Positions 38,265 through 64,000 of a DNA stretch of 64,000 nt are shown here, piece by piece (the stretch's first letter is position 1; each line of letters begins with the position of its first letter). This DNA comes from Solirubrobacterales bacterium (GTDB lineage Bacteria; Actinomycetota; Thermoleophilia; Solirubrobacterales; 70-9), in assembly GCA_017882505.1 (NCBI GenBank), contig JADGPJ010000003.1:1-64000 (forward strand), in the 5' to 3' direction. Both the position numbers and the translations under genes were made by a program. Below the pieces are notes generated by a model that was not told where the DNA came from, did not search any database, and saw only the letters and a program-made list of their open reading frames with translations.

Positions 38265-38268
38265 CGGA

Positions 38269-40991: not shown

Positions 40992-41053
40992 GCTGAGGGG
41001 GAGGGGGTCGGGTGCCTCTCCCCCACCGCCCGGGGCGTCAGCCTTTTTCGTTG

Positions 41054-41668: not shown

Positions 41669-41720
41669 CGCGGCCAACCGTAGCGAAAATCCAAGAAAAA
41701 CCGAAGGGATGCTCGAAATT

Positions 41721-41734
41721 CGAGTGATCATTCG
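41721..41734. promoter_or_regulatory. quasi-palindrome between tetR and the ACAD/carboxylase operon
   Basis: CGAGTGATCATTCG (one mismatched pair), preceded by CGAAATTCG; divergent intergenic region. Confidence 0.4.
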
Positions 41735-41747
41735 GTATATATGCCGG

Positions 41748-42881: not shown

Positions 42882-42924
42882 CCCCGCCCCCCCGCGGGCG
42901 GTCCGGCGAGAGGGGCTGACCGCG

Positions 42925-44912: not shown

Positions 44913-44916
<4 letters not shown>
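42925..44916 (+). CDS. biotin-dependent acyl-CoA carboxylase alpha subunit (biotin carboxylase + BCCP)
   Basis: [25 protein letters not shown]-terminal VLESMKMEL biotin site. Confidence 0.93.
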
Positions 44917-46478
<1,562 letters not shown>

Positions 46479-46535: not shown

Positions 46536-47492
46536 TCAGGCGCCGAAGTTCTTCGTCAGCCAGGGAACCAGGAGGGCGTTGACCTCCTGCGGCTTCTCCT
46601 GCTGCAGCCAGTGGGCGGCGTCGGGGATGACGTGCTTCTCGACCTGGGGGAGGAGCTCCTCCATGCCGTCGGTGGAGCCGGGCATGAAGAACCAGTCGTC
46701 GGCGGCGGTGATCATCAGGGCCGGCTTGTCGATCAGGTAGTCGGAGCCCTGGGCCTCTTCGAAGTCCTTTCGCAGAGCGCGGTACCAGTTGAGGCCGCCG
46801 GTGAAGCCGGTGCGGGAGTAGACGTCGACGTAGAAGCCGAGCTCCTCGTCGCTGACGATCGGCTCGCCGAAGAGCTGGGGATCGCCGACGAAGACGCCGG
46901 CCGGGACTTCCTGGATCTCTTTCGGCGCGGCCAGGAACTGCTCCATCGTGTAGCCGCGGCCGCGGAGCATCGAGCGGAAGGTGTGGTCGACGTCCTGCTC
47001 GAGGATCGCCTCGCCGACGCCCGGCTCCTGGAAGGTCCGCATGTAGTGGTTGGGCCCGCGCAGCTCGTCGTAGATTTCGATCATGTCCTGCGGCGCTTCC
47101 CAGGTGAAGTAGGGAGTGCAGAGGCTGCCGAGGCCGAGCACGCGCTCGGGGGCGAAGACGCCCGAATACCAGGCTGGCATCGAGCCCCAGTCGTGGCCGA
47201 ACCAGACCGCCCGCTCGATCCCGAGGGCGTCGAGCAGACCGGTCAGGTCGGCGACCAGGTTCTTGCAGCTGTAGGTCTGGGCGTCCGCGGGAGCGTCGGT
47301 GCCGGCGAAGCCGCGCTGGCTGGGGACGATCACGCGGAAGCCGGCGGCGGCGATCGGGTCGACCTGGTTGCGCCACGAGTAGGGGTGCTCGGGGAAGCCG
47401 TGCAGGAGCAGCACCGGCGTCCCCTCGCCCTGCTCGAAGTACTCCATCGTGATCCCGTTCGTCTCGGCGGTCTTGGGGGCGGTGAAATCCAA
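46536..47492 (-). CDS. alpha/beta hydrolase, epoxide hydrolase-like
   Basis: LLLHGFPEHPYSWRNQ, WFGHDWGSMPAW, PDAAHWLQQEKP. Confidence 0.85.
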   Translation of the reverse strand: MDFTAPKTAETNGITMEYFEQGEGTPVLLLHGFPEHPYSWRNQVDPIAAAGFRVIVPSQRGFAGTDAPADAQTYSCKNLVADLTGLLDALGIERAVWFGHDWGSMPAWYSGVFAPERVLGLGSLCTPYFTWEAPQDMIEIYDELRGPNHYMRTFQEPGVGEAILEQDVDHTFRSMLRGRGYTMEQFLAAPKEIQEVPAGVFVGDPQLFGEPIVSDEELGFYVDVYSRTGFTGGLNWYRALRKDFEEAQGSDYLIDKPALMITAADDWFFMPGSTDGMEELLPQVEKHVIPDAAHWLQQEKPQEVNALLVPWLTKNFGA

Positions 47493-47522: not shown

Positions 47523-48278
47523 TCATCCGGGGAGGGTGAATCCCGCGTCGACCGTGAGCGTCTGGCCGGTGACCATCCGCGCTTGGTCGGAGAGCAGGAA
47601 GGCGACGGGCTCGGCGATCTCGTCGGGGTGGAGCGCGCTGCCGAGCGGTGAGCGTTCGCCGGCCGCCGCGGCGATCGCTTCCCACTCGGGGATTTCTTTG
47701 AAGAGGTCGGTGAGGACGACGCCGCCGCAGATGCAGTTGGCGCGGATCCCGTTCGGCCCGCCCTCGACCGCGAGGTAGGTGACGAGCGTCTCGATCGCCG
47801 CCTTGGCCGTCCCGAAGGCCGCGTAGGCGTCGTAGACCCGGTGCGCTCCCAGGCTCGAGATCGCGACGATCGCGCCGCCGCCGTTTTCGCGCATTGTCGC
47901 CGAGACGGTCTGGGCCAGGACCAGCAGCGAGCGCACGTGGGCGGCCATCGTGTAGTCCCAGTCCTCGACCGTCAGCTCGTCGGTCAGGCCGAAGCTGCCG
48001 TTGGCCGCGTTGGCGACCAGGTAGCGCAGCGGCCCGAGCCCCTCGATCGCCTGTTCGACCGCGGAGACGTTGTCCTCGGCGACGCCGACGTCGCCCTGGA
48101 TCACGACGGCGCGGCGGCCGAGGGCGCGGATCTCCTCCGCGGTCGCCTCGGCGGCCTCGGCGTTGGCGACGTAGGTGATCGCGACGTCCGCGCCCCGGCG
48201 CGCCAGCGCCAGCGCGCACGAGCGCCCGATTCCCCGCGAGCCCCCGGTTACGAGGGCGTTGCCTTCGATTCCGTCCAT
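47523..48278 (-). CDS. SDR family oxidoreductase
   Basis: ALVTGGSRGIGRSCALALARRGADVAITY; AFGTAKAAIETLVTYLA. Confidence 0.9.
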   Translation of the reverse strand: MDGIEGNALVTGGSRGIGRSCALALARRGADVAITYVANAEAAEATAEEIRALGRRAVVIQGDVGVAEDNVSAVEQAIEGLGPLRYLVANAANGSFGLTDELTVEDWDYTMAAHVRSLLVLAQTVSATMRENGGGAIVAISSLGAHRVYDAYAAFGTAKAAIETLVTYLAVEGGPNGIRANCICGGVVLTDLFKEIPEWEAIAAAAGERSPLGSALHPDEIAEPVAFLLSDQARMVTGQTLTVDAGFTLPG

Positions 48279-48303
48279 CCGCTCTCGAACGTACCCGCCG
48301 CGC

Positions 48304-51108
48304 TCAACTGGGGATGTCGCGTCCCAGCCAGCCTTTGTAGAAGCCCTCGATGTCCGGCAGGTACTCGTGCATGACCGGGTAGCCAGGTGGTACGGCTTCC
48401 GTCTCGAGCAGGCGCCCGGAGATCGGGCAGTAGAACTCGCGCAGCTCCTGCCACTCGCCCTCGGGGTGGCCGAGCTTGGGGTAGACCTCCTCGTAGAGCT
48501 CGTCGCTGTCGCGGACGAACATCGGCGCGAACATCTTCCAGTTCTGGTCCCAGCGGCAGAGGTCGGCGCCGGCGTCGGTGCGGATCACCATCTCGCCGTC
48601 GCTGGCGCGGCGGACGATGTTCATCCCCTCGCCGTACGGGAGGACGATGCGGTCCTCGTAGTCGACCCGCTCCTGCAGCAGCTCCAGCCACTTCTCGAAG
48701 CGGTCCGGATCCTTGATCGCGGACTGGATGTCCTTGACGGCGCGGCGGGAGAGTTTCTCGTCGAGCAGGTCGGCCAGCGTCTCGCGGGTGACCTGGGTGG
48801 TCACCGGCACCGCCGCCACCTGGCCCTCGGGCAGGTAGACCTCCGAGTTGGCGAGGAACTCGGCGGCCGAGTCCTCGGGCGTGACCTTGCCCGGGACGGC
48901 GCGGGCGACCATCACGGTCGGCGTCACGACGTCGAAGTCGAAGTCCTCGGGCAGATCCCAGAAGCCGCGGAATTCAGCCGCCCAACCCGGCTCCAGCCGC
49001 ATCGACTCGGAGAACATGACCTTGACCGTCTCGATCAGGTCCTGGTCGAGGATCCGCTGGCGCTGCTCGCTCCACCACTCCGAGGCGGGCCGGGCGCGCT
49101 CGAGGCGATGGCGCATGAGGCCTTCGCGGTCGTCGAGACCGTAGGCCCGCTCCGCCCAGCGAGCCTGGATGTGACCGCCGGCGATGTCCTCCTCGACCCG
49201 CTCCACGCTGCGCAGCAGCGGGTCGCCGAGGCCGCCGCCGCCGCGCCCCGAGGAGAGGTAGAGATCGCCGGTTTTGACCGCGATCATCATCGTGTACGGA
49301 TCCTGCTCGAGCTGGTGCTCGCCGGCGAAGGCGGACATCGCCGCCTCTTCGCCGCTGACGTCGCCGACCGGGTAGGCCTTGCCGTCGGCCGCCTGCTCGA
49401 AGACGTCGGAGCCGAACACGTTGTGGACGTAGGCGCTGGGCGCCGGGTAGCCGCCGAAGAGGCCGGGCGAGGTCAGCATCCCGCCGGCGCCGATGTTCTC
49501 GATCTCGAAGTCCTGGGTGCCGTTGACGAGCAGCAGCGTCTCGAACGAGGAGCCACCGCGGTGGCGGCCCCAGCCACCGGTGTTGGGCTTGATCTGACGG
49601 CCGAGGTAGACCATCGGCTTGACCAGCTCCCACATCTCGATGTCGCCCATGTCGCCCTCGGGGTTGAAGACGGCGGCGCCGTAGTCGAGGCCGTCGAGGA
49701 CGTACTTGGCGCCCTGGCCCTGGGCGCCGATCTCGAAGTTCATGAAGCCGGAGATCTGGCCGTACTGGTCGATCCCGCCGCCCTGGGCGACGTTGCCCGG
49801 GACCGTGTAGGTGGAGACGACCTCCTCGATGTAGCCGCGCGACTGCAGGGCGCGGGAGACCGCGCGCAGATACCCGGTCGAGGTCGTGAACATCGGCATC
49901 CACGGGAACGAGGAGGAGCAGGGAGCGTCGCCGAGGTCGGCCCAGCTGCCCTCGGTCAGCAGCAGCTCGGTCGCGTAGTAGGCGCCGTCGTTGATCTTGT
50001 CGTTGCAGATCAGCGTCTGCGTGAAGAGGATCCACTGCATCCCCTGCTGGGCCGAGGGGGTGGCGTTGAAGGAGTGCCAGCCCCAGGCCGAGGAGCCGCG
50101 CAGGTCGGTGGTCCAGCGGCCGTCCTTGTCGACGATCGCCTCGTAGGCACCGTGGATGATCAGGTCGCGCTGGGCCCGCTTCGGCAGGTTCATCTTGTTC
50201 GCGTATCTGGCCTCGGTGAAGCCGGCGGAGCGGTAGCGGCCGGGGACCAGGAGGCCGCGGACGCGCGACTTGAAGTCGCGGCGGCCATCCTCGATCGCCT
50301 CCCGCATGAAGACCTTGAACGGCTCCTCGCCTTCTTCCAGCACCAGCCGCTCGACCGCGTCGCGGATCATGTGGCAGCCGGCGAGGCGGGTGCGCTCGTC
50401 GAGCAGGTAGAGGCCGGGGGCGCGGCTCTGCATCGAGACGCGCTTGTTGTGCCACGCGGCGATCGTGTCGTTCTCGCCGATCTTCATGCAGTGCAGGTCG
50501 ATGCCGTCGTCGAAGCGGGTGGTCGGCCCCACCGGGACGCCGCCCGGGGTCGTGGCGCCGATGTCCATCACGTGGATGACGCCGCCGGCCCAGCCGAGCA
50601 GCTCGCCGGGGCGGCCGGGGTTGAAGATCGGGACGAAGGTCTGGACGTCGGCGTTGTGGACGTCGCCGATCGTCGGCTGGTTGTTGGCGAAGATGTCGCC
50701 GGGCTTGATCCCGGGGTTGTCCTCCCAGCCGTTGCGGACCATGAACTTGATCGCCTCGCTCATGGTGTGGACGTGGACGATGATCCCGGTCGAGAGCGCG
50801 ACGTTGTCGCCCTCGGGCGTGTAGAGCGCGAAGCAGATCTCGCCGAGCTCGCGGACGATCGGCGAGGCGGAGATGTTGAGCGCGGTCTCGCGCGCCGTGA
50901 CCATGCCGCCGCGGACCCGCGAGAAGAGCTTCTCGAAGTGGAGCGGGTCGGAGTCCTTCATCTCGAGGTCGCGGAGGCCGTGGTAGTAGCCGGTCTCCTC
51001 GAACTTGCGCTCGGAGACGTCGAGCATCTCGGCCAGCTTCAGGCCATCCCAACCGATCGGTGCGCGCTGGTCGGGCTCGAGAGTGCGGACGGTGTCGATC
51101 GTGGCCAT
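48304..51108 (-). CDS. acetone carboxylase-like alpha (HyuB) subunit fused to gamma subunit
   Basis: HyuB motifs (SPIVRELGEICFALYTPEGDNVALSTG, GDVHNADVQTFVPIF); C-terminal about 150 aa DPDRFEKWLELLQERVDYEDRIVLPYGEGM...WDQNWKMFAPMFVRD...YPVMHEYLPDIEGFYKGWLG resembles the acetone carboxylase gamma subunit. Confidence 0.85.
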   Translation of the reverse strand: MATIDTVRTLEPDQRAPIGWDGLKLAEMLDVSERKFEETGYYHGLRDLEMKDSDPLHFEKLFSRVRGGMVTARETALNISASPIVRELGEICFALYTPEGDNVALSTGIIVHVHTMSEAIKFMVRNGWEDNPGIKPGDIFANNQPTIGDVHNADVQTFVPIFNPGRPGELLGWAGGVIHVMDIGATTPGGVPVGPTTRFDDGIDLHCMKIGENDTIAAWHNKRVSMQSRAPGLYLLDERTRLAGCHMIRDAVERLVLEEGEEPFKVFMREAIEDGRRDFKSRVRGLLVPGRYRSAGFTEARYANKMNLPKRAQRDLIIHGAYEAIVDKDGRWTTDLRGSSAWGWHSFNATPSAQQGMQWILFTQTLICNDKINDGAYYATELLLTEGSWADLGDAPCSSSFPWMPMFTTSTGYLRAVSRALQSRGYIEEVVSTYTVPGNVAQGGGIDQYGQISGFMNFEIGAQGQGAKYVLDGLDYGAAVFNPEGDMGDIEMWELVKPMVYLGRQIKPNTGGWGRHRGGSSFETLLLVNGTQDFEIENIGAGGMLTSPGLFGGYPAPSAYVHNVFGSDVFEQAADGKAYPVGDVSGEEAAMSAFAGEHQLEQDPYTMMIAVKTGDLYLSSGRGGGGLGDPLLRSVERVEEDIAGGHIQARWAERAYGLDDREGLMRHRLERARPASEWWSEQRQRILDQDLIETVKVMFSESMRLEPGWAAEFRGFWDLPEDFDFDVVTPTVMVARAVPGKVTPEDSAAEFLANSEVYLPEGQVAAVPVTTQVTRETLADLLDEKLSRRAVKDIQSAIKDPDRFEKWLELLQERVDYEDRIVLPYGEGMNIVRRASDGEMVIRTDAGADLCRWDQNWKMFAPMFVRDSDELYEEVYPKLGHPEGEWQELREFYCPISGRLLETEAVPPGYPVMHEYLPDIEGFYKGWLGRDIPS

Positions 51109-51112
51109 TGGG

Positions 51113-53260
51113 TCAGGCCTCCTTGTTCTCGAGGTGGAAGATGCCGTGCTCGTCGAGCCAGGCCCGGCGGTCGGGCGGGATCGGGAAGGTCGTCGACTCG
51201 GCCTCGAGCACGGCCGGGCCCTCGATCGTGTGGCCGAAGCGAATGTCTTCCATCTCGTAGACGTCGGTGGTCGCGTGGCCGTCGTTCCACCAGACCTGGC
51301 GCGTCTCTTTGACGGTCGGGGCGGCGGCTTCGCGGGGCAGCGTCGGCAGCGTCGGCTGTTCGATCGGGACCGAGCCCTTGACGATCGCCTGGGCGACCAG
51401 GTAGCCGAGCTCGGGCGAGGAGGCGGCGCGGGCGTACATCCGCGTGTAGGTCGTCTCGAAGGTCTCGATCAGGTCGCGGACGTCGTCGGCCGACTCCAGC
51501 GCCGGCTTCGGCGCGTCGACCTCGATGTCGACCAGCTGGCCGTAGTACTGCATCCGCACCATGTGGGTGAAGGAGATGTCCTCGGACTTGTAGCCGGACT
51601 TGGCGAACTCGTCGCGGACGCGGTCCTCGAGCGAGCGCCAGGCCTGGGTCAGGAGGCCGCCCGCCTGCTCGCGTTCGGCGTCGTCCTGGACCGGCATCAG
51701 CGGCAGGTCGACCTGGCGGTCGAAGCGGTACTCGAACTCGGCGCAGGCACAGCCGAAGGCGGAGAAGCCCGCCGCCCACTCGGGCACCAGCACCTGCTGG
51801 TAGGGGACGCCGCTGGTGTAGCCGGCGACGTGCAGCGGGCCGCCGCCGCCGTAGCAGAGCAGGGTGTAGTCGGCGGGGCTGTAGCCCTTGCCGAGGATGC
51901 GGCCGACGGCCTCGTTGCGGAGCGAGGTCTCGAACAGCTCGATCACTCCCGAAGCCGCCTCCTCGACGCCGAGCCCGAGCGGGTCGGCGACCTGGCGCTT
52001 GACCTCGGCCCGGGCGCGCTCGACGTCGAGCTGGACCTGGCCGCCGAGGAAGTACTCGGGGTTGAGCCGGCCGAGCACGAGGTTGAGGTCGGTGATCGAG
52101 ACCGTTTCCACCCCGCCCTCGGGCCAGGCGGTGCCGATCATCGCCCCTGCGGAGTCGGGCCCGATCTCGGGCCGGCGCGCGTTGGGGTCGATGCGGACGA
52201 AGGAGCCGCAGCCGGAGCCGACCGAGTCGATCTGGACCAGCGGCATGTTGAGCAGGAATTTCGCGATGTCCGGGGTCGTCGTCACCTCGTAGCGCTTGCC
52301 GGTAAGCAGCGCGATGTCGAACGAGGTGCCGCCGATGTCGGTGCAGAGCACGTTGTTGAGGTCGATCCGGTCGGCCAGGTAGCGGGCGCCGACGACGCCG
52401 CCGATCGGGCCGGAGACGAGCGTCGTCGCCAGCTGGTCGGCGTCGATCGAGATCGTGCCGCCGTGGGACGCCATCACCCTCAGCTCGAAGGCGGCGCCGC
52501 GCTCCTTGGTGCGGTCGCGGACGGCGCGCAGGGTGCCGCGCGAGGGCTCGGCGGCGTAGGCCTCGATCACGGTCGTGTTCAGCCGCGGGAAGTCGCGGCG
52601 CGAGGGGTAGAGGTCGCTGGAGACGAAGACCGGGCAGTCGCCGTTGACGCTGCGTTTCGCCTTCTCCTCCTCGACGATCTCGCGCACCCGCTGCTCGTGA
52701 GCTGGGTTGCGGTAGCTGAAGATCAGCGAGATGACGATGCCCTCGACGCCGTCGTCGAGCAGCGCGTTGACCGCCTCGCGGGCGTCCTCGTCGCGCAGCT
52801 GCAGGACCTCTTTGCCGAAGAGGTCGATGCGGCCGCGGACACCGTGGACGCGGTCGCGCGGGATCAGCGGGTCGTTGTGATGGTGGGTGGCGATATGGAG
52901 GCGGTCGGCGTAGGAGTAGCCGAGGTAGGTCTGGATGCCGCGCTCCATCTGCAGCGAGTCCTCCTGGCCGGCGGTGACCAGGGCGCCGACGCGGCGGCCC
53001 TTGCGGCTGAGCAGCCGGTTCAGCATCGCGGTGCCGCTGAAGACGGCGGACTGGATCCGCGGGAAGCCCTCCTCCGGAGTCGAGTCCCACTGGCGGAACG
53101 CGTCCTCGGCGGAGCTCATCAGCCCCACGGACTCGTCCTGCGGGGTCGTCTGTGCCTTGCCGACGATGAAGCTGCCCTCGTCGTCGACTATGAACGTGTC
53201 GGTCATCGTGCCGCCAGCGTCAATCGCCAGCACGCGCGGATCGTGCTCTCTCTTTCCCAT
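51113..53260 (-). CDS. acetone carboxylase-like beta (HyuA) subunit
   Basis: LAIDAGGTMTDTFIVDDEGSFIVGKAQTTPQDESVGL, MASHGGTISIDADQLATTLVSGPIGGVVGARYL, DIGGTSFDIALLTG, FSAFGCACAEFEYRFD. Confidence 0.88.
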   Translation of the reverse strand: MGKREHDPRVLAIDAGGTMTDTFIVDDEGSFIVGKAQTTPQDESVGLMSSAEDAFRQWDSTPEEGFPRIQSAVFSGTAMLNRLLSRKGRRVGALVTAGQEDSLQMERGIQTYLGYSYADRLHIATHHHNDPLIPRDRVHGVRGRIDLFGKEVLQLRDEDAREAVNALLDDGVEGIVISLIFSYRNPAHEQRVREIVEEEKAKRSVNGDCPVFVSSDLYPSRRDFPRLNTTVIEAYAAEPSRGTLRAVRDRTKERGAAFELRVMASHGGTISIDADQLATTLVSGPIGGVVGARYLADRIDLNNVLCTDIGGTSFDIALLTGKRYEVTTTPDIAKFLLNMPLVQIDSVGSGCGSFVRIDPNARRPEIGPDSAGAMIGTAWPEGGVETVSITDLNLVLGRLNPEYFLGGQVQLDVERARAEVKRQVADPLGLGVEEAASGVIELFETSLRNEAVGRILGKGYSPADYTLLCYGGGGPLHVAGYTSGVPYQQVLVPEWAAGFSAFGCACAEFEYRFDRQVDLPLMPVQDDAEREQAGGLLTQAWRSLEDRVRDEFAKSGYKSEDISFTHMVRMQYYGQLVDIEVDAPKPALESADDVRDLIETFETTYTRMYARAASSPELGYLVAQAIVKGSVPIEQPTLPTLPREAAAPTVKETRQVWWNDGHATTDVYEMEDIRFGHTIEGPAVLEAESTTFPIPPDRRAWLDEHGIFHLENKEA

Positions 53261-53325
53261 CAGCCGACTGTAGGTCGGCTGATCGCCGGTGTCGTCGTCC
53301 TCCCCAACCGATCTGACCGGCGCCA

Positions 53326-53344
53326 TTTGTGGTCTCGCCACAAA
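53326..53344. promoter_or_regulatory. TTTGTGG-N5-CCACAAA dyad between divergent carboxylase operon and PucR-type regulator
   Basis: Perfect 7-bp arms, spacer TCTCG; 17 bp upstream of the regulator ATG. Confidence 0.6.
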
Positions 53345-53361
53345 CTGGCTACCTTGAACCG

Positions 53362-54615
53362 ATGGCGAACGAGAGCGCGATCGCACCGCCCCACGCGAGC
53401 CGCGGCGAGATCGCCGAGATCGTCGAGAACCTCAGCGCCGAGCTCGACGAAGTCTCCGCCGCCCTCACCGACACGATCCACGAGCACCTCGACGAGCTCG
53501 ACGACGACATGCGCACCTGGACCCTGCAGAGCACGCGGGCGAACCTCGGCGTGATGGTGACGCTGATGCGCGAGGGCGCCGACCCGCGCTCGGTCGTCGC
53601 CCCGCCGGAGGCGATCGGCTACGCCAAGGAGTACGTCGTCCGCGGCCTCGACTTCGGCCTCCTCCAGCGCGCCTACCGCAGCGCCCAGGGGGTCTTCTCG
53701 GGAATGATCCTCGAACGCCTGCGCCAGGCGACCGACGATCCCGACCACCTGGCCGACGCGATGGTCTTCTTCAATGCCTGGATCTTTGCCTGGATCGAGG
53801 CGATCGAGCGCCAGCTGACCGATGTCTACATGGGCGAGCGCGAGCAGTGGGTGCGCGGCGCGGCGGCGATGCGGGCGGCCGAGGTGCGGGCGCTGCTGGG
53901 TGGCGCCCGCGTCGACGTCGCCGAGGTCAGCACCCGGCTCGGCTACGACCTCGACCGCTTCCACGTCGGCTACGTGGTCTGGAACGAGACCGCCGAGGAC
54001 GCGCCCGGCGGCGGCCACGCGCTGTTCGGCGAGATGGAGCAGGTCGCGGCCGCCGTCGCCGAGTCGCTCGGCGCCCGTTCGGCGCTGACCGTCGCCCAGG
54101 GCCGCCACCTCGCCTGCTGGGCCGGGCGCCACGAGCCCCAGCACCTCGGCGACCTCCGGGTCCCTCGCGGCGCCGGCAAGGGGATCTCGGTCGCCGCGGG
54201 GACGCCGGCGCACGGGGTCGAGGGCTTCGTCCTCAGCCACCGCGAGGCGCTGCTGGCCCGCCGTGTCGCCCAGCTGCGCGGCGACTCACGCGCCGCCCGC
54301 GTCACCTTCCCCGACCTCTCCCTGGAGGCGCTGATGGTCAACGACGTCGACGCCGCCCGGCGCTTCGCCGAGCGCGAGCTCGGCGCCCTCGCCGCCGCCG
54401 ACGACGCGACCGTGCGCCTGGCCTCGACCCTCGCCGTCTTCCTCGACGAGGGCGCCAGCTTCGTCCGCGCCGCCCGCCGCCTCGGCGTCCACACCAACAC
54501 CGTCACCTACCGCGTCCACCGCGCCGAGGAGCTGCTCGGCCACCCCGTCGGCGAGCGTCAGCTGGAGCTGCGGGTGGCGCTGCGCCTGACACGGCTGGTG
54601 CCAGCCGACGGCTAG
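53362..54615 (+). CDS. PucR/CdaR-type transcriptional regulator
   Basis: C-terminal HTH: STLAVFLDEGASFVRAARRLGVHTNTVTYRVHRAEELLGHPVGERQLELRVALRL. Confidence 0.88.
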   Translation: MANESAIAPPHASRGEIAEIVENLSAELDEVSAALTDTIHEHLDELDDDMRTWTLQSTRANLGVMVTLMREGADPRSVVAPPEAIGYAKEYVVRGLDFGLLQRAYRSAQGVFSGMILERLRQATDDPDHLADAMVFFNAWIFAWIEAIERQLTDVYMGEREQWVRGAAAMRAAEVRALLGGARVDVAEVSTRLGYDLDRFHVGYVVWNETAEDAPGGGHALFGEMEQVAAAVAESLGARSALTVAQGRHLACWAGRHEPQHLGDLRVPRGAGKGISVAAGTPAHGVEGFVLSHREALLARRVAQLRGDSRAARVTFPDLSLEALMVNDVDAARRFAERELGALAAADDATVRLASTLAVFLDEGASFVRAARRLGVHTNTVTYRVHRAEELLGHPVGERQLELRVALRLTRLVPADG

Positions 54616-54657
54616 CGCTGGAGGCCGGCCAATTCCCTGATTGCTCTCTCCGGATGC

Positions 54658-55698
54658 TCAGTCCCAGGCCACGCGCAGGAGGAGCTTTCCCATGTTGCTG
54701 CCCTCGAAGAGCCGGCCAAGGGCTTCGGGTGCCTTCTCGATGCCGCCGGGGACGATCGTCTCGTCGTAGTGGAGCTTGCCTTCGCCGAGCATGCCGGCGA
54801 GGTGGTTGATCGCCTCTTCGAAGTGCTCGACGTAGTCGAGGACGAGGAAGCCGCGAATCGTCGCCCGCTGCATGATCAGCTGGCCGACGTTGAGCAGGCC
54901 GCTGCCGCCCTCGCCGTCGTTGTAGGTGTTGTACTCGGCGATCATCCCGCAGAGCGAGATCCGGGCGCCGATGTTGAGGTGCATCAGGACCTCGTCCATG
55001 ATCGGGCCGCCGACGCTCTCGAAGTCGACGTCGACGCCGTCGGGCGTCGCCGCGGCGAGCTGCTCGCGCCAGTCGTCGGCGCGGTGGTCGACGCAGGCGT
55101 CGTAGCCGAGCTTCTCGACCGCGTGGCGGCACTTCTCCGGACCTCCGGCGACGCCGACTACGCGGGCGCCGCGCTGCTTGGCGATCTGGCCGGCGATCGA
55201 GCCGACGGCGCCGCAGGCGGCGGAGATCACGATCGTCTCGCCCTCCTTCAGCTCGGAGAGCTGGATCCCCTGGTAGGCGGTGATCCCGGTGTGGCCGAGC
55301 GCCCCGAGGAAGGCCGAGAGCGGCGCCGGCAGCGGGTCCGGGAGCACGGTCAGCGGCGCCTCCAGCAGGTTGTCGTCGGCGAGGCAGAGCTCCTGCCAGC
55401 CGAGGAAGCCGTTGACGATCGCCCCGACCGGCATGTCGTCGCGGCGGGAGGCGATCACCTCACCGACGCCGAGCCCGCGCATCACCGCGCCGAGCGGGAC
55501 CGCCGGCATGTAGCCGCGGATGTCGCTCATCCAGATCCGGTTGGTCGGGTCGAGGGAAAGCAGCTCGGTGCGGACCAGCGCCTGCCCGTCGGTGAGCTCG
55601 GGAACCTCCTCCTCGACCAGCTCGAGGTCGCCGTCGGCGAGGTTGCCGTTGGGTCGCTTGCGAAGGCGGAACGCGCGGTTGACGGTCGTCTCTGACAT
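54658..55698 (-). CDS. NADP-dependent oxidoreductase (MDR, leukotriene B4 dehydrogenase-like)
   Basis: VISAACGAVGSIAGQIAKQRGARVVGVAGGPEKC; LLSLDPTNRIWMSD. Confidence 0.9.
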   Translation of the reverse strand: MSETTVNRAFRLRKRPNGNLADGDLELVEEEVPELTDGQALVRTELLSLDPTNRIWMSDIRGYMPAVPLGAVMRGLGVGEVIASRRDDMPVGAIVNGFLGWQELCLADDNLLEAPLTVLPDPLPAPLSAFLGALGHTGITAYQGIQLSELKEGETIVISAACGAVGSIAGQIAKQRGARVVGVAGGPEKCRHAVEKLGYDACVDHRADDWREQLAAATPDGVDVDFESVGGPIMDEVLMHLNIGARISLCGMIAEYNTYNDGEGGSGLLNVGQLIMQRATIRGFLVLDYVEHFEEAINHLAGMLGEGKLHYDETIVPGGIEKAPEALGRLFEGSNMGKLLLRVAWD

Positions 55699-55742
55699 CT
55701 CTCAGCTCTCCTCGAATTGGGTGGCTTCTGCGGGCGCCTGGT

Positions 55743-57200
55743 TCATCGGTTCAGTTCGATCGCCCAGCGCTCGGTGGCGACGCGTACGTAGGGGGACTGC
55801 GTGGTGCGGATCAAGTTGCGGAGCTCGTCGACCTCGGGCGCGAGTAGCGGGTAGTCGCGCTTGACCGGCCCGGCCGCCTGCATCGCGGCGATGTCGGACT
55901 CGGGGATCAGTGCCCTGAGGATCAGCAGGTCGTCTTCGCCGGGACCGGTTCCGTGGCGGGCGCGCAGCTCCTCCAGGGTCGGCTGTTCGGGCGGGTTGGC
56001 GACGACGCGGGCGGCGTTGTCGGCGCTCATGATCCGGTTGAGGACCTCGGGGTCGATCGGCGCCGGCGGCTCGCCGTAATGGCCGGCGGTGTAGGCGACG
56101 ACCTGGTCGGGGACGAGCTTGTAGCGATCGCCGCTGACGACGTTGAGCACGGCCTGGGTGCCGACCAGCTGGCTCAGCGGCGTCGCCATCACCGGCCAGC
56201 CGAGCTCGCGCCGGACGTCGGCGATCTCGGCCAGGACCTCGTTCAGGCGATGGGTCATCCCGTGCTGCTCGAGCTGGGCTTTGAGCGTCCCGACCATCCC
56301 GCCCGGGATCTGGTGGGTGACGTTGAAGAGGTCGTACTCGCTGACCTGGTCGACCAGGTGCCCGGCCGCCCTGCCGACGGCGCGGAAGTGCTCGTCGACC
56401 GGCGCCAGCAGCGAGGTGTCGAGCGAGTGATCCCAGCCCATCAGCTCGAGGTTGCGGACGACGCTCTCGGTCGAGGGGACCGAGGGTCCGTTCGACATCG
56501 AGCGGGCCGCCGTGTGCAGGACCTTGACCCCGTGCTTGACCGCTTCGACGTAGGTCAGGCCGGAGGTGCCCATCAGGTTGTTGGCGTGGATCTCGACCGG
56601 CTTCGGCGCCGCCGCGGCGACGATCTTCGGCAGCAGCTCGCGCAGGCGCTCGACTTCGAGCACACCGGCGGTGTCGTAGAAGAGGACACCGTCGATCTCC
56701 GGCACGGCGGCGATCTCGGCCGCTTTCGCCGCCAGGTACTCGTCGGTGTGGACCGGGGAGATCGTGTAGAAGACGGTGCCGACGACCTCGGAGCCGTACT
56801 CCTTGGCGACCCGGGCCAGGCGGGCGAAGTTGTCGATCCCGTAGAGGACGTCGTAGATCCAGTAGGAGCGGACGCCGTGCTCGTTCAGGCGCCGCATCCA
56901 GAGGTCCATCAGGGCATCGGGGGAGACCCCGAAGGAGATGCAGGCGTTGGCCCGCATGCCGCCCCGCATCGGCGTCCGGTGGATCGCGGCGCGCAGCAGG
57001 TCGAGGCCTTCCCAGGGGTTCTCCCGCTTGTACTTGAGCAGCACCTCCATGTGGGAGCTGCCGGCGAAGTCGATGACGCTGAAGCCGGTGCGGTCGAGGA
57101 GGTCGGCGACGGGCAGCGCCATGCCCGCCTGCATCCGCATCCCCCAGAGGCTCTGCTGGCCGTCGCGCAGGGTCGAGTCGAGGATCTCAACGCTGGGCAT
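55743..57200 (-). CDS. biotin-type carboxyltransferase / HMGL-like (OadA / pyruvate carboxylase B-like), no biotin domain
   Basis: LDSTLRDGQQSLWGMRMQAGMALPVADLLDRTGF; NVTHQIPGGMVGTLKAQLEQHG; ends without an M-K-M biotinylation motif. Confidence 0.8.
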   Translation of the reverse strand: MPSVEILDSTLRDGQQSLWGMRMQAGMALPVADLLDRTGFSVIDFAGSSHMEVLLKYKRENPWEGLDLLRAAIHRTPMRGGMRANACISFGVSPDALMDLWMRRLNEHGVRSYWIYDVLYGIDNFARLARVAKEYGSEVVGTVFYTISPVHTDEYLAAKAAEIAAVPEIDGVLFYDTAGVLEVERLRELLPKIVAAAAPKPVEIHANNLMGTSGLTYVEAVKHGVKVLHTAARSMSNGPSVPSTESVVRNLELMGWDHSLDTSLLAPVDEHFRAVGRAAGHLVDQVSEYDLFNVTHQIPGGMVGTLKAQLEQHGMTHRLNEVLAEIADVRRELGWPVMATPLSQLVGTQAVLNVVSGDRYKLVPDQVVAYTAGHYGEPPAPIDPEVLNRIMSADNAARVVANPPEQPTLEELRARHGTGPGEDDLLILRALIPESDIAAMQAAGPVKRDYPLLAPEVDELRNLIRTTQSPYVRVATERWAIELNR

Positions 57201-58722
57201 GCGCGCTCCCGGCCGCCAGCTCGCGCAGCTGGCCCTTGAGCACCTTGCCGGCGGGGTTGCGCGGCAGCTCGGCGACGACGTTGTAGGAGCGCGGTCGCTT
57301 GTGGCGCGCGATCGAGTCGAGGCAGCGCCGGTCGAGCGCCGCCTCGTCGACCTCGGCGTCGGCGGCGGGGACGACGAAGGCGACGATCAGCTCGCCCCAC
57401 TCGGGGTCCTCGACGCCGACGACGGCGACCTCGGCGACGGCCGGGTCGAGGTCGATCACGTCCTCGACCTCGCGCGGGTAGACGTTGTAGCCGCCGGTGA
57501 TGATCACGTCCTTGGCGCGGTCGACGAGGGTGAGACGCCCCTGCCCGTCGAAGCGCCCGAGGTCACCGGTGTGCAGGCAGCCGCCGCGCAGCGTCTGCGC
57601 GGTCGCCTCGGGCATGTCGAGGTAGCCCGCCATCACGGTCGGGCCGTCGACGACGACCTCCCCCACCTCCCCCGTGGGAAGCTCGCGGTCGTCCTCGTCG
57701 ACGACGCGGACGATCAGCCCGACCCTGGCGACACCGACCGAGCGCAGGGCCTCCTCGTCGCCGGCCTCAACCGCGGCGCCGATCGCCGCCTTGCCGTTGG
57801 CGGTGATCGTGCAGGGCGACTCGCCCTGGCCGTAGCCGTTCCAGACGACCGGGCCGAGGGCGCGCACGGCGTCGCGCAGGTCGGCGGGCAGCAGCGGCGC
57901 GGCGCCGGCGATGATCGTCCCGATCCTCCCGGCGGCCTCGCCCGCGCGAGGGTGGGCCGAGAGCCGGCGCAGCAGCGTCGGCGGCACGAAGAAGGTCGAG
58001 CGCCGCCCGGTGGCGAGGAGGTCGAAGAGCTCGTCGGCGTCGAAGCCGCCCGAGGGAGGCAGCACCTGCGCGGCGCCGCGGCAGAGGAAGGGCAGCGACA
58101 TCAGGCCGGAGGCGTGGCTGAGGGCGGCGACGTGGATCATCGAGTCCTCGGGCGTCACCGTGGCGGCGTCGGCGAGGTAGGCGGCCGTCATCGCGAAGAG
58201 GTTGTGGTGGCTGAGCCGGGCGCCCTTGGGCTTGCCGGTGGTGCCGGAGGTGAAGAACGTCCAGGCGTCGTCGGTCGCCGCCCGAGCCACCGGCGCGATC
58301 GGCTCCGGCGCCAGCAGCGCCGCGTCCTCGTCCTCGCCGAAGACGACGACCGGAACCTCGACCTCGGCCACCAGGTCGGCGGCGACGTCGGCGGTCGAGA
58401 AGCAGAGCTTGGCGTGGCCGCGGTCGACGATGTCGGCCGCCTCGCGCGCGTGCAGGCGGCTGGAGATCGGCACCGCGACCCCGCCCGCGTGCCAGATCGA
58501 GAACAGGCTCTCAATGTAGGCGGTGTGGTTGGAGGCGAAGAGCGCGACCGCATCGCCGGCGCCGACACCGTGGCGATCACGCAGGCCCGCCGCCCGCCTT
58601 GCCACCGCCTCGGCCAGCTCGCCCCAGCTGCGCTCAGGGCGATCGCCGACCAGGATCGCGGCTTCGTCCGCGGCCCAGTGGGCGGGGCCGTCGAGCAGCC
58701 CGGCGAGGTTCGCGCCGTACAT
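57187..58722 (-). CDS. acyl-CoA synthetase (AMP-forming, class I adenylate-forming)
   Basis: TFFTSGTTGKPKGARLSHHNLF, GYGQGES, HTGDLGRFDGQGRLTLVDRAKDVIITGGYNVYPREVE. Confidence 0.92.
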   Translation of the reverse strand: MYGANLAGLLDGPAHWAADEAAILVGDRPERSWGELAEAVARRAAGLRDRHGVGAGDAVALFASNHTAYIESLFSIWHAGGVAVPISSRLHAREAADIVDRGHAKLCFSTADVAADLVAEVEVPVVVFGEDEDAALLAPEPIAPVARAATDDAWTFFTSGTTGKPKGARLSHHNLFAMTAAYLADAATVTPEDSMIHVAALSHASGLMSLPFLCRGAAQVLPPSGGFDADELFDLLATGRRSTFFVPPTLLRRLSAHPRAGEAAGRIGTIIAGAAPLLPADLRDAVRALGPVVWNGYGQGESPCTITANGKAAIGAAVEAGDEEALRSVGVARVGLIVRVVDEDDRELPTGEVGEVVVDGPTVMAGYLDMPEATAQTLRGGCLHTGDLGRFDGQGRLTLVDRAKDVIITGGYNVYPREVEDVIDLDPAVAEVAVVGVEDPEWGELIVAFVVPAADAEVDEAALDRRCLDSIARHKRPRSYNVVAELPRNPAGKVLKGQLRELAAGSAHAQR

Positions 58723-58766
58723 CGATCGCGTCCTCTCGCCGGACCGCTCGCGCGGGCCCGCCGCCG

Positions 58767-60257
58767 TCAGCTCCCCGAGTTGCTCGTCGCCGCCGCCAGC
58801 TCGGCGGCCTGCGGGGCATCGGGATGGTTCTTGGCCCAGACGTCGTCGTCGTAGTGGCGCAGGTCGAACGCCTTCGAGTGGAACGCCTTGGCGGCCGCGT
58901 TGCACTCGTCCTGGGTCAGCTTGCCCTGGGTCGTGGTCCACTTCGCCGTTTTCGCCGGCAGCGAGGTGCTGCCCGCCTCGATCGGCCCGACGCCCGCGGT
59001 CCACTCGTCGTCGGCCAGCACCGAGTAGGGGATCGGGGTCCACATCTCGGACCGCTCACCCGAGTAGCGGGCCATCCGGTGCGGGCTGCGGTTCTGCGAG
59101 GTCAGCGTGATCAGGCCGACCAACTCGGCGATCGCCGAGTTGCCGTACTCGTCGTTCATCAGCGGCTTGAAGCGCTGGGTGCGCTCGTCGACGAGCATCC
59201 AGTCGTCCTGCTCGTAGACGCCGGCGAAGTGGGCGACGTCTTTGAGGGTCCCGTAGTAGACGAGGAGCCCCGCGTCGATCATCTGCTCGCGGCTCCAGCC
59301 GGCCATCATCTTCCACATCGTCGCGGTCGCCGACTCCATCTTCGCCCGCTGGTCGTCGAGGTAGTCGGCGAGCTCGGAGGCGCTGTCCATGTGGACCGGG
59401 ATGTACCCGTCGGAGAGGAAGTCGGAGGCGTAGACCCCGAGCGAGACCAGGTTGTCGTTGTTGTAGGACGGTTCGGCCTCGAAGCTGCCCCAGTCGTCGA
59501 CCATGTTGAAGTGGGTGTCCTTCATGGTCACCGTGATCGTCAGGTTGTTGTGCTCGATCTCGCCCGCCACCCCGTCCATCCACGGGTAGTCGCACTCGGA
59601 GAGGTCGAGGGCATCGCGGACGAGCATCTCGTTGCCGTCCTTGGTCTTGTACGGGCCGTGGTTGCAGAAGCTCAGCCGGCACTCGCAGTGGCTGAGGAAG
59701 CCGTAGGCGGAGACCGCCGCCATGAAGCGGGTGAAGGCGGTGTGGAGCTTGTCGCCGGACGTGACGCCGATCGCGGCGTCTTCGAAGGCCTCGGTCTGGC
59801 GGGCGGTGTGGATCTGGTCTTTGTGGTTGCCGTCGCTCGGCATGATGTGCGCCTCGGAGCGGTGGTAGGCGAGGTTGAGGCGCCGCGTGAAGTCGAGCAC
59901 GTCCATCATGTCTTCGACCGCGTCGGTCGGCTTCAGGATCCCCATGTCCAGCAGCCACTGATGACCGCCGAGGTAGAACTGGGTGGCCACGTCCATCGTG
60001 ATCGTGTTGACGTAGCTGCCGACCTGGCGGGCGCGGTCGGCGATCTCCTCCGCCGGCATCGCCGCGTCGATCTTGCGCACCAGCTCCGGGTAGCGGTACC
60101 AGGCGTTGTAGTAGGAGAGCGCGATGTAGGGGTTGACGGGGAAGAGTTTCGACTCCTGAACGGTGCGCGTCGTGCACTGGAAGTAGAAGGAGTCGGCGAG
60201 CTTCTGGATGTAGGTGTTGACATCCAGCACGTCCACGTAACTGCGTTTGATCGGCAT
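58767..60257 (-). CDS. protein of unrecognised family, 496 aa, in dikinase operon
   Basis: Long ORF, operonic, no family I recognise; HCECRLSFCNHGPY and AYHRSEAHIMPSDGNHKDQIH segments rich in His/Cys. Confidence 0.8.
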   Translation of the reverse strand: MPIKRSYVDVLDVNTYIQKLADSFYFQCTTRTVQESKLFPVNPYIALSYYNAWYRYPELVRKIDAAMPAEEIADRARQVGSYVNTITMDVATQFYLGGHQWLLDMGILKPTDAVEDMMDVLDFTRRLNLAYHRSEAHIMPSDGNHKDQIHTARQTEAFEDAAIGVTSGDKLHTAFTRFMAAVSAYGFLSHCECRLSFCNHGPYKTKDGNEMLVRDALDLSECDYPWMDGVAGEIEHNNLTITVTMKDTHFNMVDDWGSFEAEPSYNNDNLVSLGVYASDFLSDGYIPVHMDSASELADYLDDQRAKMESATATMWKMMAGWSREQMIDAGLLVYYGTLKDVAHFAGVYEQDDWMLVDERTQRFKPLMNDEYGNSAIAELVGLITLTSQNRSPHRMARYSGERSEMWTPIPYSVLADDEWTAGVGPIEAGSTSLPAKTAKWTTTQGKLTQDECNAAAKAFHSKAFDLRHYDDDVWAKNHPDAPQAAELAAATSNSGS

Positions 60258-60267
60258 CTGATTCCCC

Positions 60268-60987
60268 CTAGGAGATCTTGATAATCCGGGCGCGATGACC
60301 GCTCGCGCTCTCGGCGTCGGCGTAGGCGTCGGCGGCGGGCTTGGAGTACTCGACGGTGACCTCGTCGCCGTCGGCGAGCCCGTCCAGCGTCGCGTTCATC
60401 AGGCACGGCACGTTGTACTCGCGGGTGAGGATCCCGAGGTGCGAGCGGACCGTGCCCCCCATGCAGACGACGGCCTTGAAGTCGCCGAGGATCGGCGCGG
60501 TCAGGGTGCCGCCGGAGTCGTCGATGATCGCCACCGTGTTCTCGGGCACGCCGCCGGTCAGCATCTCCATCACCCTGTCGACGTCGGAGATGTAGCGGGC
60601 GGTGCCGGTGACGTCGGCGGGAGCCTTGAAGACGTTGTCGCCGTGGCCGACGATCGGCCGCCCCTGCTCGTCGGACTCGTTCTCGCCGGTGTTGGCGATG
60701 CCCGCCAGCGGTTTGTATTTGTCGGGCTCCTCCTTGAGCGAGATCGTCGCCGAGACGTCGAACTTGTAGCCCTCGGCGAGCAGCGCCGCCTCGATCTTCT
60801 CGAAGTCCTCGCGGGTGGGCTCCAGCGAGCCGTCTTCGACCGCCTGCTCCCACGTCTTGCCGCTGGCGGCGAAGCGCTCGGCGACAAGGGCCCTGATCGC
60901 GCCGTGGTACTTCTCGACCGTGGGCGTCGCCGACTCGCGGGCCCAGATGTCCGGGTACGGCCTTGCGGCCGCGTCTGAATCGCTCAC
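60268..60987 (-). CDS. stand-alone PEP-utilising-enzyme mobile (phosphohistidine swivel) domain protein
   Basis: GDFKAVVCMGGTVRSHLGILTREYNVPCLMNATLDGLADGDEVTVEYS; GTG start overlaps the preceding stop (GTGA). Confidence 0.8.
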   Translation of the reverse strand: MSDSDAAARPYPDIWARESATPTVEKYHGAIRALVAERFAASGKTWEQAVEDGSLEPTREDFEKIEAALLAEGYKFDVSATISLKEEPDKYKPLAGIANTGENESDEQGRPIVGHGDNVFKAPADVTGTARYISDVDRVMEMLTGGVPENTVAIIDDSGGTLTAPILGDFKAVVCMGGTVRSHLGILTREYNVPCLMNATLDGLADGDEVTVEYSKPAADAYADAESASGHRARIIKIS

Positions 60988-62756
60988 GTCTGTTTCTCCT
61001 CCTCGAGATTCGCCTTCTCCTGAGCCAGTCGCAGCAGCAGTGCGGCGGTGGGCTGTCCTGGCAGTCTCTCCAGCTTGGGCACGCCCGCGGCGATCAGCGC
61101 CCGCGCGCCCTCGGCGCTCGCCAGCACCGAGCCGCGCGCGGCGGCGGCCCCGCGGAGGCGCTCGGCGAGAGCCTCCGGGTCCGGCGCGCCCTCGTCGATC
61201 ATGACTCCCTCGGCGTCGAGGTCGACCGCGCCGGGCGCCTCGTCGACCACCTCCACCGGGCTCAGCTCCCTTGCCCACTCGATCAGCTCGCTGAGACCGG
61301 GAATCTCGGTCGGGTCGACCTCCTCGGTCGGCAGGACGCCGGCGTAGACGACACCGGCGGAGCCGTCGACGGTGAGCTCGCGGCCGACGAGCCCGTCGGT
61401 GACCCCGTCGCCGACGCCGACGACGCTGGGCCGGCCGAGGGCGCGGGTGACGACGGCGGCGTGGGAGGTCGAGCCACCGCGCTCGGTGACGACGGCGCGA
61501 GCGGCGATCATGCCGCTGACGTCCTCGGGGCTGGTCGTCGGCCGGACCAGGACGGCCCCGCCCTCGTCCGCCTCTGCGGCCTCGGAGTCGGAGACCGCCC
61601 TGCCGCCGGCGACGCCGGGGCAGGCGGCGACGCCACGGGCGACGATCTCGGCCCCGGCGGTGACCTCCTTGGAAAGACGGGGGGCCAGCACGGTCGCGAG
61701 CTGCTCGGCGCTGACCCGGCAGACCGCCTCCTGGTGGTCGATCGCGCCCTCGTCGGCGAGGTCGACGGCGGCGCGAACGGCGGCCAGCGGCGAGCGCTTC
61801 GCCGATCGGGTCTGCAGCAGGTAGAGATTGCCGCGCTCGACCGTGAACTCGATGTCCTGGACGTCGCCGTGCTCGCGCTCGAGCAGCTTCGCCGCCTCGA
61901 GCAGCCGCTCATGGGCCTCGGGCATCTGGCTCGCCAGGGCATCGAGCGGCAGCGGGTCGTGGGTGCCGCTGACGACGTCCTCGCCCTGTCCCTTCGCCAA
62001 CCACTCGCCGTAGGGCTCGGGGTGGCCGCTGAGCGGGTTGCGGCTGAAGAGGACGCCGGTGCCGGAGTCCTCGCCGAGGTTGCCGAAGACCATCGCCTGG
62101 ACGATCACCGCGGTGCCGCCCTCCTCGGAGATGCCCCAGTGGCGGCGGTAGGTCTTGGCGCGGCGCGAGGACCAGGAGCCGAAGACGGTGCTGATCACCG
62201 CTCGCAGCTGCTCGTGGGGATCGCCGGGGACCTCCTCGCCAGTGTCGCGGCGGACGGCCTCGCGGGTCTCCCCGGGAGTCGCGTCCTCCCCGGGCTCCTC
62301 GATGTCGGCGCCGAGCACGGTCTGGCCGAACTGGTGGATGAAGCGGTTGTGAGTCGAGCGGGCGAAGGCCTCGTCGCCGGAAAGGCGGCCGAGCGCCGCC
62401 TCGACGTCGTCGGTGATGCCGAGGTTGAGGACCGTGTCCATCATCCCCGGCATGCTCACCGCCGCACCCGAGCGGACCGAGACCAGCAGCGGGTGCTCGC
62501 CGCCACCGAATTCGCGTCCCAGCTTTTCCTCGAGGCCGGTGACACCGGCGAGCACCGAGCTCCAGGCCTCGTCTTCGAGCTCGCCGCCGGCGGCGTGGAA
62601 GCGGCGGCACTCGTCGATCGGCAGGCACAGCGCCGGCGGCACCGGCAGGCCGAGGCTGAGCATCCAGGCGATGCTGCGACCCTTGTTGCCGACGACCTCG
62701 CGGCTCGGCACCGTGGCGCCGTCGAGAACGACGACGCGGTCGGCGACTGCGGTCAA
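60984..62756 (-). CDS. truncated pyruvate,phosphate dikinase-like protein (ATP-grasp + His domain, no PEP/pyruvate barrel)
   Basis: VSVRSGAAVSMPGMMDTVLNLG, MVFGNLGEDSGTGVLFSRNPLSG, DIEFTVERGNLYLLQTRSAKR, VTERGGSTSHAAVVTRALGRP; 590 aa; TTG start. Confidence 0.88.
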   Translation of the reverse strand: MTAVADRVVVLDGATVPSREVVGNKGRSIAWMLSLGLPVPPALCLPIDECRRFHAAGGELEDEAWSSVLAGVTGLEEKLGREFGGGEHPLLVSVRSGAAVSMPGMMDTVLNLGITDDVEAALGRLSGDEAFARSTHNRFIHQFGQTVLGADIEEPGEDATPGETREAVRRDTGEEVPGDPHEQLRAVISTVFGSWSSRRAKTYRRHWGISEEGGTAVIVQAMVFGNLGEDSGTGVLFSRNPLSGHPEPYGEWLAKGQGEDVVSGTHDPLPLDALASQMPEAHERLLEAAKLLEREHGDVQDIEFTVERGNLYLLQTRSAKRSPLAAVRAAVDLADEGAIDHQEAVCRVSAEQLATVLAPRLSKEVTAGAEIVARGVAACPGVAGGRAVSDSEAAEADEGGAVLVRPTTSPEDVSGMIAARAVVTERGGSTSHAAVVTRALGRPSVVGVGDGVTDGLVGRELTVDGSAGVVYAGVLPTEEVDPTEIPGLSELIEWARELSPVEVVDEAPGAVDLDAEGVMIDEGAPDPEALAERLRGAAAARGSVLASAEGARALIAAGVPKLERLPGQPTAALLLRLAQEKANLEEEKQT

Positions 62757-63367
62757 GGAGCCTCCTCGCGCTCGCGTCCGAGCATCCTCAGCAGATCCTC
62801 GTGGAGCTCGAACCAGACCGTGTGGTAGCTGTCGATGCGGACCCCGCTGACGAAGTCGAGGTCGCCGGCGAGCGTCTTGTCGTGGGCCTCGTCGAGGCGC
62901 TCCCTGTAGACCGACATCCGCGGTTGCAGCTCGGCGAAGCGGTCGATCACCTTCTCGGCCCGCTCATGCTGGGCGCCGAGGCGGTCGACGATGCCGTGGT
63001 CGTAGTCGGCGTCGGAGTGGTCGTTGGGCACCCGCTCGCCGCCCCCCGAGGGCATCATCTGCCAGTCGGTGAAGAGTTCGAGGAGCGCCCGGTTGATCCG
63101 CTCGAAGCGCTCGTAGGTCTCGGTCCCGGCGGGGTCGGCGCGAAAGTCGGCGAAGGCCTCGGGGTAGCGCTCGTCGAGCCACTCGCGTCCGGCGGGAGTG
63201 ACCATGAAGGTCCCCTTGGCGCCGGCCGCGCGGCCGGCCTCGACCGCGGCCTCGAGGGCGGCGGCGACGCCGGCCTCGTCGGCGCCGAGGATCGCGGCGA
63301 CGGCCTCGGGCCCCCCGGCCTTCTTCACAGCCAGGCCGTGCAGAGCGAGCAGGTCCAGATCAGTCAT
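62753..63367 (-). CDS. hypothetical protein (204 aa), first gene of dikinase operon
   Basis: Stop overlaps the dikinase start (TTGA); N-terminal region looks winged-helix-like. Confidence 0.65.
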   Translation of the reverse strand: MTDLDLLALHGLAVKKAGGPEAVAAILGADEAGVAAALEAAVEAGRAAGAKGTFMVTPAGREWLDERYPEAFADFRADPAGTETYERFERINRALLELFTDWQMMPSGGGERVPNDHSDADYDHGIVDRLGAQHERAEKVIDRFAELQPRMSVYRERLDEAHDKTLAGDLDFVSGVRIDSYHTVWFELHEDLLRMLGREREEAP

Positions 63368-63690: not shown

Positions 63691-64000
63691 TTATCCAGCC
63701 GCTTTCCAGTGCCGCAGCAGCGCCTCGGCGGTCTCCGCCGGCCGCTCGAAGGGCCACCAGTGGCCGCACTCGAGGACCACCAGCTCCCCTTTCATCCGGG
63801 CGGCGAGGCGCTCGCCGAATTCGAGCGGCACGTAGGGGTCGGTGCGACCCCAGATCACCATCGCCGGCAGCTCCAGGCGCTCCAGGTCCGGCTGCCATTC
63901 CGCGCCGATGTCGATCGCCGAGCGGTAGAGCTTGAGGATCGTGTCCTTGCCGTGCGGGTTGAGCCAGATGTTGCGCTCCGCGTCCTCGCGCGGGACCCCG
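63691..64000 (-). CDS. alpha/beta hydrolase, 3' part only (start outside window)
   Basis: Minus-strand frame missing from the ORF track: ...IWLNPHGKDTILKLYRSAIDIGAEWQPDLERLELPAMVIWGRTDPYVPLEFGERLAARMKGELVVLECGHWWPFERPAETAEALLRHWKAAG*. Confidence 0.8.
   Translation of the reverse strand, partial: GVPREDAERNIWLNPHGKDTILKLYRSAIDIGAEWQPDLERLELPAMVIWGRTDPYVPLEFGERLAARMKGELVVLECGHWWPFERPAETAEALLRHWKAAG

Follow-up and report, generated by a model that had tools for sequence, protein, structure and literature searches.

A candidate four-part dikinase operon with a new protein family, beside an acetone carboxylase operon, in a Solirubrobacterales genome

Introduction

Hydroxyaryl ketones are processed with a dikinase, a carboxylase and a phosphatase in two described pathways, Hpe of Rhodococcus rhodochrous GD02 (HpeHI, HpeCBA, HpeD, HpeE and HpeF) and Acv of Sphingobium SYK-6, and Hpe also includes a CoA ligase (PMC9618137, PMC12167813). 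HpeHI phosphorylates acetovanillone or 4-hydroxyacetophenone, HpeCBA carboxylates the phosphorylated ketone only, dephosphorylation is by HpeD, and the proposed enzyme for CoA ester formation is HpeE (PMC9618137). Here we analyze a 64,000-nucleotide stretch of a Solirubrobacterales bacterium (positions 1 to 64,000 of contig JADGPJ010000003.1, hereafter the window) from a 2.6 Mb draft genome, G000. Two operons of the window flank a PucR-type regulator. Operon A is predicted to encode an acetone carboxylase, and operon B, the main subject of this report, on balance probably encodes a four-part, ATP-dependent small-molecule dikinase that would feed a catabolic pathway of the Hpe kind.

Three further systems serve for comparison. 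The phenol dikinases PpsAB and CreHI carry an ATP-grasp donor and a swivel-histidine arm on separate polypeptides, with a module other than the pyruvate barrel binding the acceptor; in PpsA, CreH and HpeH the substrate domain and then the swivel lie in one chain, and the donor is an ATP-grasp protein only (PMC12167813). Rifampin phosphotransferase (RPH) unites ATP-grasp, swivel histidine and a dedicated acceptor domain in a single chain. Mycobacterium tuberculosis VadK (Rv1127c), a short relative of pyruvate phosphate dikinase (PPDK), autophosphorylates on swivel His422 and is operonic with Rv1126c. Its described role is that of a regulatory kinase that interacts with methylcitrate enzymes, and no small-molecule substrate has been reported (PMC13400623).

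Components of operon B

An earlier reading of this DNA from its letters (the sequence-only reading) had described two operons around a PucR-type regulator, and open reading frame and Pfam checks of the window recovered all of its genes in place. It had ended operon B at 63367; the genes from there to 54658 are present, but the operon continues in the same direction past position 64000 of the contig. This upstream part (L090) holds genes for a hydrolase, a His phosphatase, a zinc alcohol dehydrogenase, a short-chain dehydrogenase/reductase (SDR), a CoA ligase and a thiolase-like protein. Overlaps of 4, 4 and 14 bp at gene junctions agree with the several overlapping start and stop codons reported before. 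The gene order of the region is largely repeated in L007, L008, L009 and L041. A sigma-70 promoter scan gave no match. The genes of operon B within the window are as follows.

63691..64000, minus strand: alpha/beta hydrolase, part of an operon B gene that runs past the window end and reaches contig position 64419
62753..63367, minus strand: small204 (204 aa), Rv1126c-like by profile; fusions with the 496-aa family occur in L051-L054 and L076
60984..62756, minus strand: VadK-type short PPDK, 590 aa; PF01326 and PF00391, ATP-grasp plus its own swivel; 660 bits to NCBIfam PRK05878, whose cut-off full-length PPDKs also clear
60268..60987, minus strand: free swivel-His protein, 239 aa; PF00391, His183, profile match to the swivels of phosphoenolpyruvate (PEP) synthase and RPH
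58767..60257, minus strand: orf496, proposed acceptor-binding subunit; adjoins or is fused to the swivel; placed by a tree
57187..58722, minus strand: AMP-binding acyl-CoA ligase, probably starting at the ATG at 58722
55743..57200, minus strand: OadA-like carboxyltransferase (CT), homologous to the CT of operons for biotin carboxyl carrier protein (BCCP), biotin carboxylase (BC) and CT beside the same kinase
54658..55698, minus strand: NADP-dependent, curcumin-reductase-like oxidoreductase of the medium-chain (MDR) type, by domain and family matches

The short PPDK has the Pfam domains PPDK_N and PEP-utilizers and no PEP/pyruvate barrel, and its PDB match stops near PPDK residue 540. With the barrel absent, synthesis of pyruvate or PEP by operon B was ruled out. 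The sequence-only reading was thus right that the barrel is missing, that the substrate module is replaced and that a separate swivel protein is encoded. That protein is not the sole swivel, however, as the short PPDK carries one of its own with His432, which gives the protein set two swivel histidines. ATP-grasp motifs and swivel histidine are retained in 26 of 26 aligned short PPDKs. The partner, small204, had no Pfam match, and its AlphaFold model (pLDDT 74) gave no PDB match below E 0.001 in Foldseek; its profile picks up the gene beside mycobacterial-type short PPDKs in L066, L067 and L070, the label mycobacterial-type being assigned by highest PRK05878 scores. ATP-grasp, swivel histidine, missing barrel and an Rv1126c-like partner gene together mark the 590-aa protein as VadK-type. 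Operon B resembles VadK/Rv1126c in its short PPDK with conserved swivel histidine and small operonic partner, whereas the M. tuberculosis pair has no adjoining free swivel protein or orf496 and its published role is the regulation of methylcitrate enzymes. Elsewhere, the short PPDK and small204 are operonic with PpsA-like proteins bearing a C-terminal swivel (L069, L071), or a VadK-type PPDK lies near such proteins (L068), which suggests that VadK-type donors may pair with acceptor modules of more than one type.

In the free swivel protein, His183 is invariant in 19 of 19 sequences; the protein also has an extra N-terminal region of about 110 aa. Its neighbor orf496, left as an unknown by the sequence-only reading, indeed had no match in Pfam, NCBIfam or PDB and is, by these searches, a new protein family with an invariant Arg194 and a Gly-Pro-Tyr motif. 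Comparison with PpsA-like proteins revealed no detectable relation (hhalign probability 0.1), the profiles being shallow and a shared fold still possible; scans of viral contigs yielded no further relatives. In nearly all of some 30 loci the swivel adjoins orf496 or is fused to it, and small204 and/or the short PPDK are also present in most that are sufficiently long; loci found via orf496 contain it by design, and these counts describe its company. L073 and L076 have orf496 fused directly to a swivel domain, and in Rhodococcus opacus B4 a single annotated protein of 793 aa unites swivel, orf496 and small204. Position and exclusion indicate that orf496 is probably the acceptor-binding subunit. 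In the orf496 tree, all carboxylase-linked members fall in one clade of 12 rows (support 100/99), and most members linked to cytochromes P450 lie outside it.

Further orf496 arrangements were encountered. L048, L049 and L050 have tandem pairs of orf496-like genes after a single swivel gene (L049 and L050 also have small204), an arrangement that would suit either a heterodimer of two acceptor subunits or a separate subunit for each of two substrates. The window's own genome holds a second swivel plus orf496, apparently one gene split by a contig break between the start of contig C109 and the end of C69 (L043, L044), with a PaaK-like ligase, OB-fold and thiolase genes and a P450 as neighbors. 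The Rhodococcus plasmids that bear the carboxylase operon hold additional swivel plus orf496 sets upstream of it, one of them fused (L073, 7899-11100; L074, 7305-10876). On plasmid RPME01 of Methylibium petroleiphilum PM1 (L077, 12315-16776), orf496-like, swivel and small204 genes accompany a DUF7064/7065 protein, a few kb from cobalamin-dependent mutase, AMP-binding and MeaB genes of the same megaplasmid.

As in PpsAB and CreHI, the ATP-grasp donor and the swivel-His arm of operon B are on separate polypeptides, and a module other than the pyruvate barrel, here proposed to be orf496, would bind the acceptor. The phospho-accepting swivel histidine of those dikinases and of HpeHI has its counterpart in His183, but their single alpha chain does not, swivel and orf496 being separate genes. 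RPH has the same three elements in one chain; the match of the free swivel protein to it is confined to the swivel, and orf496 shows none.

Pathway context

The gene company of the kinase points to a biotin-type carboxylase. On plasmids pRB98 of R. oxybenzonivorans and pA of R. pyridinivorans the order is swivel, orf496, ligase, small204, PPDK, BCCP, BC, CT, OB-fold, thiolase, phosphatase and SRPBCC; on Novosphingobium pSA1 it is orf496, BCCP, BC, CT, ligase, thiolase, swivel, small204 and PPDK. The kinase is operonic with BCCP, BC, CT, CoA ligase and thiolase in L073, L074 and L075, and in L010/L011 its genes are surrounded by BC, BCCP, two CTs, thiolase, ligase and a HAD phosphatase. In Nanopelagicales, too, the same kinase is accompanied by a biotin carboxylase with carrier and carboxyltransferase, a CoA ligase, a thiolase and, in most cases, a phosphatase. 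The CTs of relatives' kinase operons are homologous to the window's OadA-like protein (46 to 61%), and CT homologues were found in five of five genomes with a close orf496, the window's own included, and in none of ten with only a distant one. BCCP-BC-CT cassettes are present in G000 (contig C119), G220, G278 and G364. The window operon itself contains the CT, with BC and BCCP on contig C119; full sets stand beside the kinase only in relatives. By comparison with these loci, the carboxylase matching the dikinase would be of the biotin type. The sequence-only reading had proposed phosphorylation and/or carboxylation followed by CoA ester formation; comparison with L073, L074, L075 and L010/L011 favors this logic, with a carboxylase other than the acetone-type enzyme then in mind.

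The Hpe-type pairing of phosphatase and CoA ligase is also found, the former as the His phosphatase of L090 and the latter at 57187-58722 and again in L090; phosphatases are present in L007, L008, L009, L010, L041, L073 and L074 as well. Hpe and Acv resemble the relatives (L073, L074, partly L075 and L010) in combining dikinase, biotin carboxylase, carrier, CT, phosphatase and CoA ligase in one cluster, and overlapping genes are a further likeness. Hpe differs in several respects. In place of HpeH there are here a free swivel protein, orf496 and a PPDK-type donor that has a swivel of its own, a thiolase-like protein replaces HpeF, the window operon is without BC and carrier, and the L090 His phosphatase is from a family other than that of HpeD. 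Since this gene company corresponds to the steps of the Hpe pathway, the substrate of operon B is most likely a hydroxylated ketone.

Proposed mechanism

We propose that the short PPDK uses ATP to phosphorylate His432 in its own swivel, as shown for His422 of VadK. The phosphate would then reach His183 of the free swivel, either directly from the ATP-grasp site or from histidine to histidine, and the swivel together with orf496 would pass it to a hydroxyl or enol of an orf496-bound substrate. Small204 may act as a docking or regulatory subunit of the PPDK. As gene linkage suggests, the phosphorylated compound would be carboxylated by a biotin carboxylase composed of the operon's CT with BCCP and BC supplied from elsewhere (the cassette on C119), after which the operon's His phosphatase would remove the phosphate, the AMP-binding ligase add CoA and the thiolase-like enzyme cleave the product.

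Several observations weigh against this proposal. Mycobacterial VadK loci are without orf496, the published description of VadK is of a regulatory kinase, and short PPDKs without orf496 are common. The AlphaFold model of orf496, built from six close sequences, reached a pLDDT of 30 and was unusable, so that the acceptor-binding role rests on exclusion and linkage. We found no tested precedent for two swivel histidines per system, and the proposed passage of phosphate to His183 is correspondingly tentative. L008 and L041 are without the ligase and CT directly after orf496. Finally, OadA-type enzymes have Lys and HxH where the window CT has Tyr and HxN. This last point is not decisive, because these residues recur in the Novosphingobium homologue, whose gene lies between those for BC and the ligase. 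We had considered excluding the OadA-like protein as a carboxyltransferase for its Lys and His losses and dropped this once the same residues were seen in the BCCP-BC-CT-ligase operon of L075.

The pathway logic is already known, so the sequence-only reading, which knew of no experimental description of the combination, put this too strongly: the Hpe and Acv pathways have been described (PMC9618137). In the literature we found no description of this dikinase protein set, or of an acetone carboxylase with PPDK or phenylphosphate synthase. Three things appear to be new: the acceptor subunit, a design with two swivels and the placing of VadK-type proteins in a small-molecule context. To the small-molecule dikinases the proposed enzyme would add a probable acceptor-binding family, apparently unstudied, that is found in Thermoleophilia, in Methylibium PM1 and on plasmids of Rhodococcus and Novosphingobium, and it would single out a group of unassigned catabolic operons as likely "phosphorylate first" pathways.

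A broader scheme is possible, and we hold it tentatively: VadK-type donors may load their own swivel histidine and relay the phosphate from histidine to histidine to a free swivel serving exchangeable orf496 acceptor subunits, in ketone-carboxylating and in P450-linked pathways. On this view, mycobacterial VadK would represent the donor half of a kinase of this design.

A reading of the short PPDK, small204 and swivel as a phosphorelay with a regulatory role, directed at enzymes or at orf496 as a sensor, is in our estimate unlikely; such a role has been proposed for VadK in the methylcitrate cycle. The interaction of VadK with methylcitrate enzymes and the lack of a reported small-molecule substrate (PMC13400623) speak for such a relay, but the constant neighbors are carboxylases, CoA ligases, P450s and phosphatases, the swivel is fused to orf496 in some loci, and the donor pair keeps company with swivel-bearing PpsA-like proteins (operonic in L069 and L071, nearby in L068).

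The neighboring acetone carboxylase

Operon A and the regulator comprise the following genes.

53329..54615, plus strand: PucR-type regulator, PucR C-terminal helix-turn-helix (PF13556, E 5e-15)
51113..53260, minus strand: HyuA, acetone carboxylase beta subunit (PDB 5m45_B, E 2e-232)
48304..51108, minus strand: HyuB-gamma, fused acetone carboxylase alpha and gamma subunits (5m45_A, E 2e-178; 5m45_C, E 1e-42)
47523..48278, minus strand: SDR oxidoreductase of operon A, by domain matches
46536..47492, minus strand: alpha/beta hydrolase, last operon A gene; order conserved in G220 (L098)

The PucR gene and HyuA are transcribed divergently, their starts 68 bp apart, and the PucR gene is convergent with operon B; the hydrolase gene follows the end of the SDR gene by 30 bp. 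HyuA aligns with the acetone carboxylase beta chain; in HyuB-gamma, residues 34-724 align with the alpha chain and residues 773-933 with the gamma chain. These scores far exceed those to acetophenone carboxylase chains in the PDB comparison. The Mn ligands of the alpha subunit, Glu89, His150, Asp153 and His175 (PMC5543143), are identical at all four positions of the alignment. Operon A is thus clearly predicted to encode all three subunits of an acetone carboxylase, as the sequence-only reading had it. It resembles AcxABC (PDB 5m45, 5svb) in its three subunits and four Mn ligands, and differs in the fusion of alpha and gamma in one 934-aa chain. The genome has another copy on contig C79 (L097).

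The sequence-only reading had joined acetone carboxylase and dikinase into one ketone system, in which the dikinase would phosphorylate a ketone (enol) or alcohol and HyuA/HyuB-gamma carboxylate the product. This integration now looks doubtful. The order dikinase operon-PucR-HyuA-HyuB-gamma recurs in the window, L008 and L007 plus L098, and HyuB-gamma occurs in three of the five genomes with a close orf496 (Fisher p 0.005), but the three syntenic cases belong to one genus and are not independent. Among 399 Thermoleophilia genomes (an even sample of one class, in which related genomes are not independent), HyuB-gamma was present in 34, an orf496 homologue in 15 and both in only three, all of that single genus; 31 of the 34 lacked orf496 and 12 of the 15 lacked HyuB-gamma (Fisher p 0.13). 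The two are therefore found apart far more often than together. PucR-HyuA-HyuB-gamma stands in L094 of G324, a genome without an orf496 match, and the HyuA-HyuB-gamma unit of L097 is without a dikinase; conversely, the single-contig genome G364 has dikinase and PucR (L041) without HyuB-gamma. Moreover, acetone carboxylase forms its own phosphoenol intermediate from ATP and requires no kinase (PMC5543143). The acetone carboxylase is tied to operon B only loosely. It would be a separate enzyme that may consume acetone released downstream, or a mere neighbor.

Least probable is that orf496 is a separate enzyme acting on the phosphorylated product, such as a lyase or isomerase: its length of about 500 aa, an invariant Arg194 and Gly-Pro-Tyr motif that could form an active site and the tandem pairs of L048-L050 would suit an enzyme, but its fusions to swivel domains (L073, L076) and to small204 (L051-L054) would not, and these operons offer no other acceptor-binding candidate.

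Beside operon A, positions 29364-46478 of the window form a branched acyl-CoA region with genes for a methylmalonyl-CoA-mutase-type large subunit, an acetoacetate decarboxylase, a CoA ligase and an SDR, together with an acyl-CoA dehydrogenase and methylcrotonyl-CoA-carboxylase-like alpha and beta genes.

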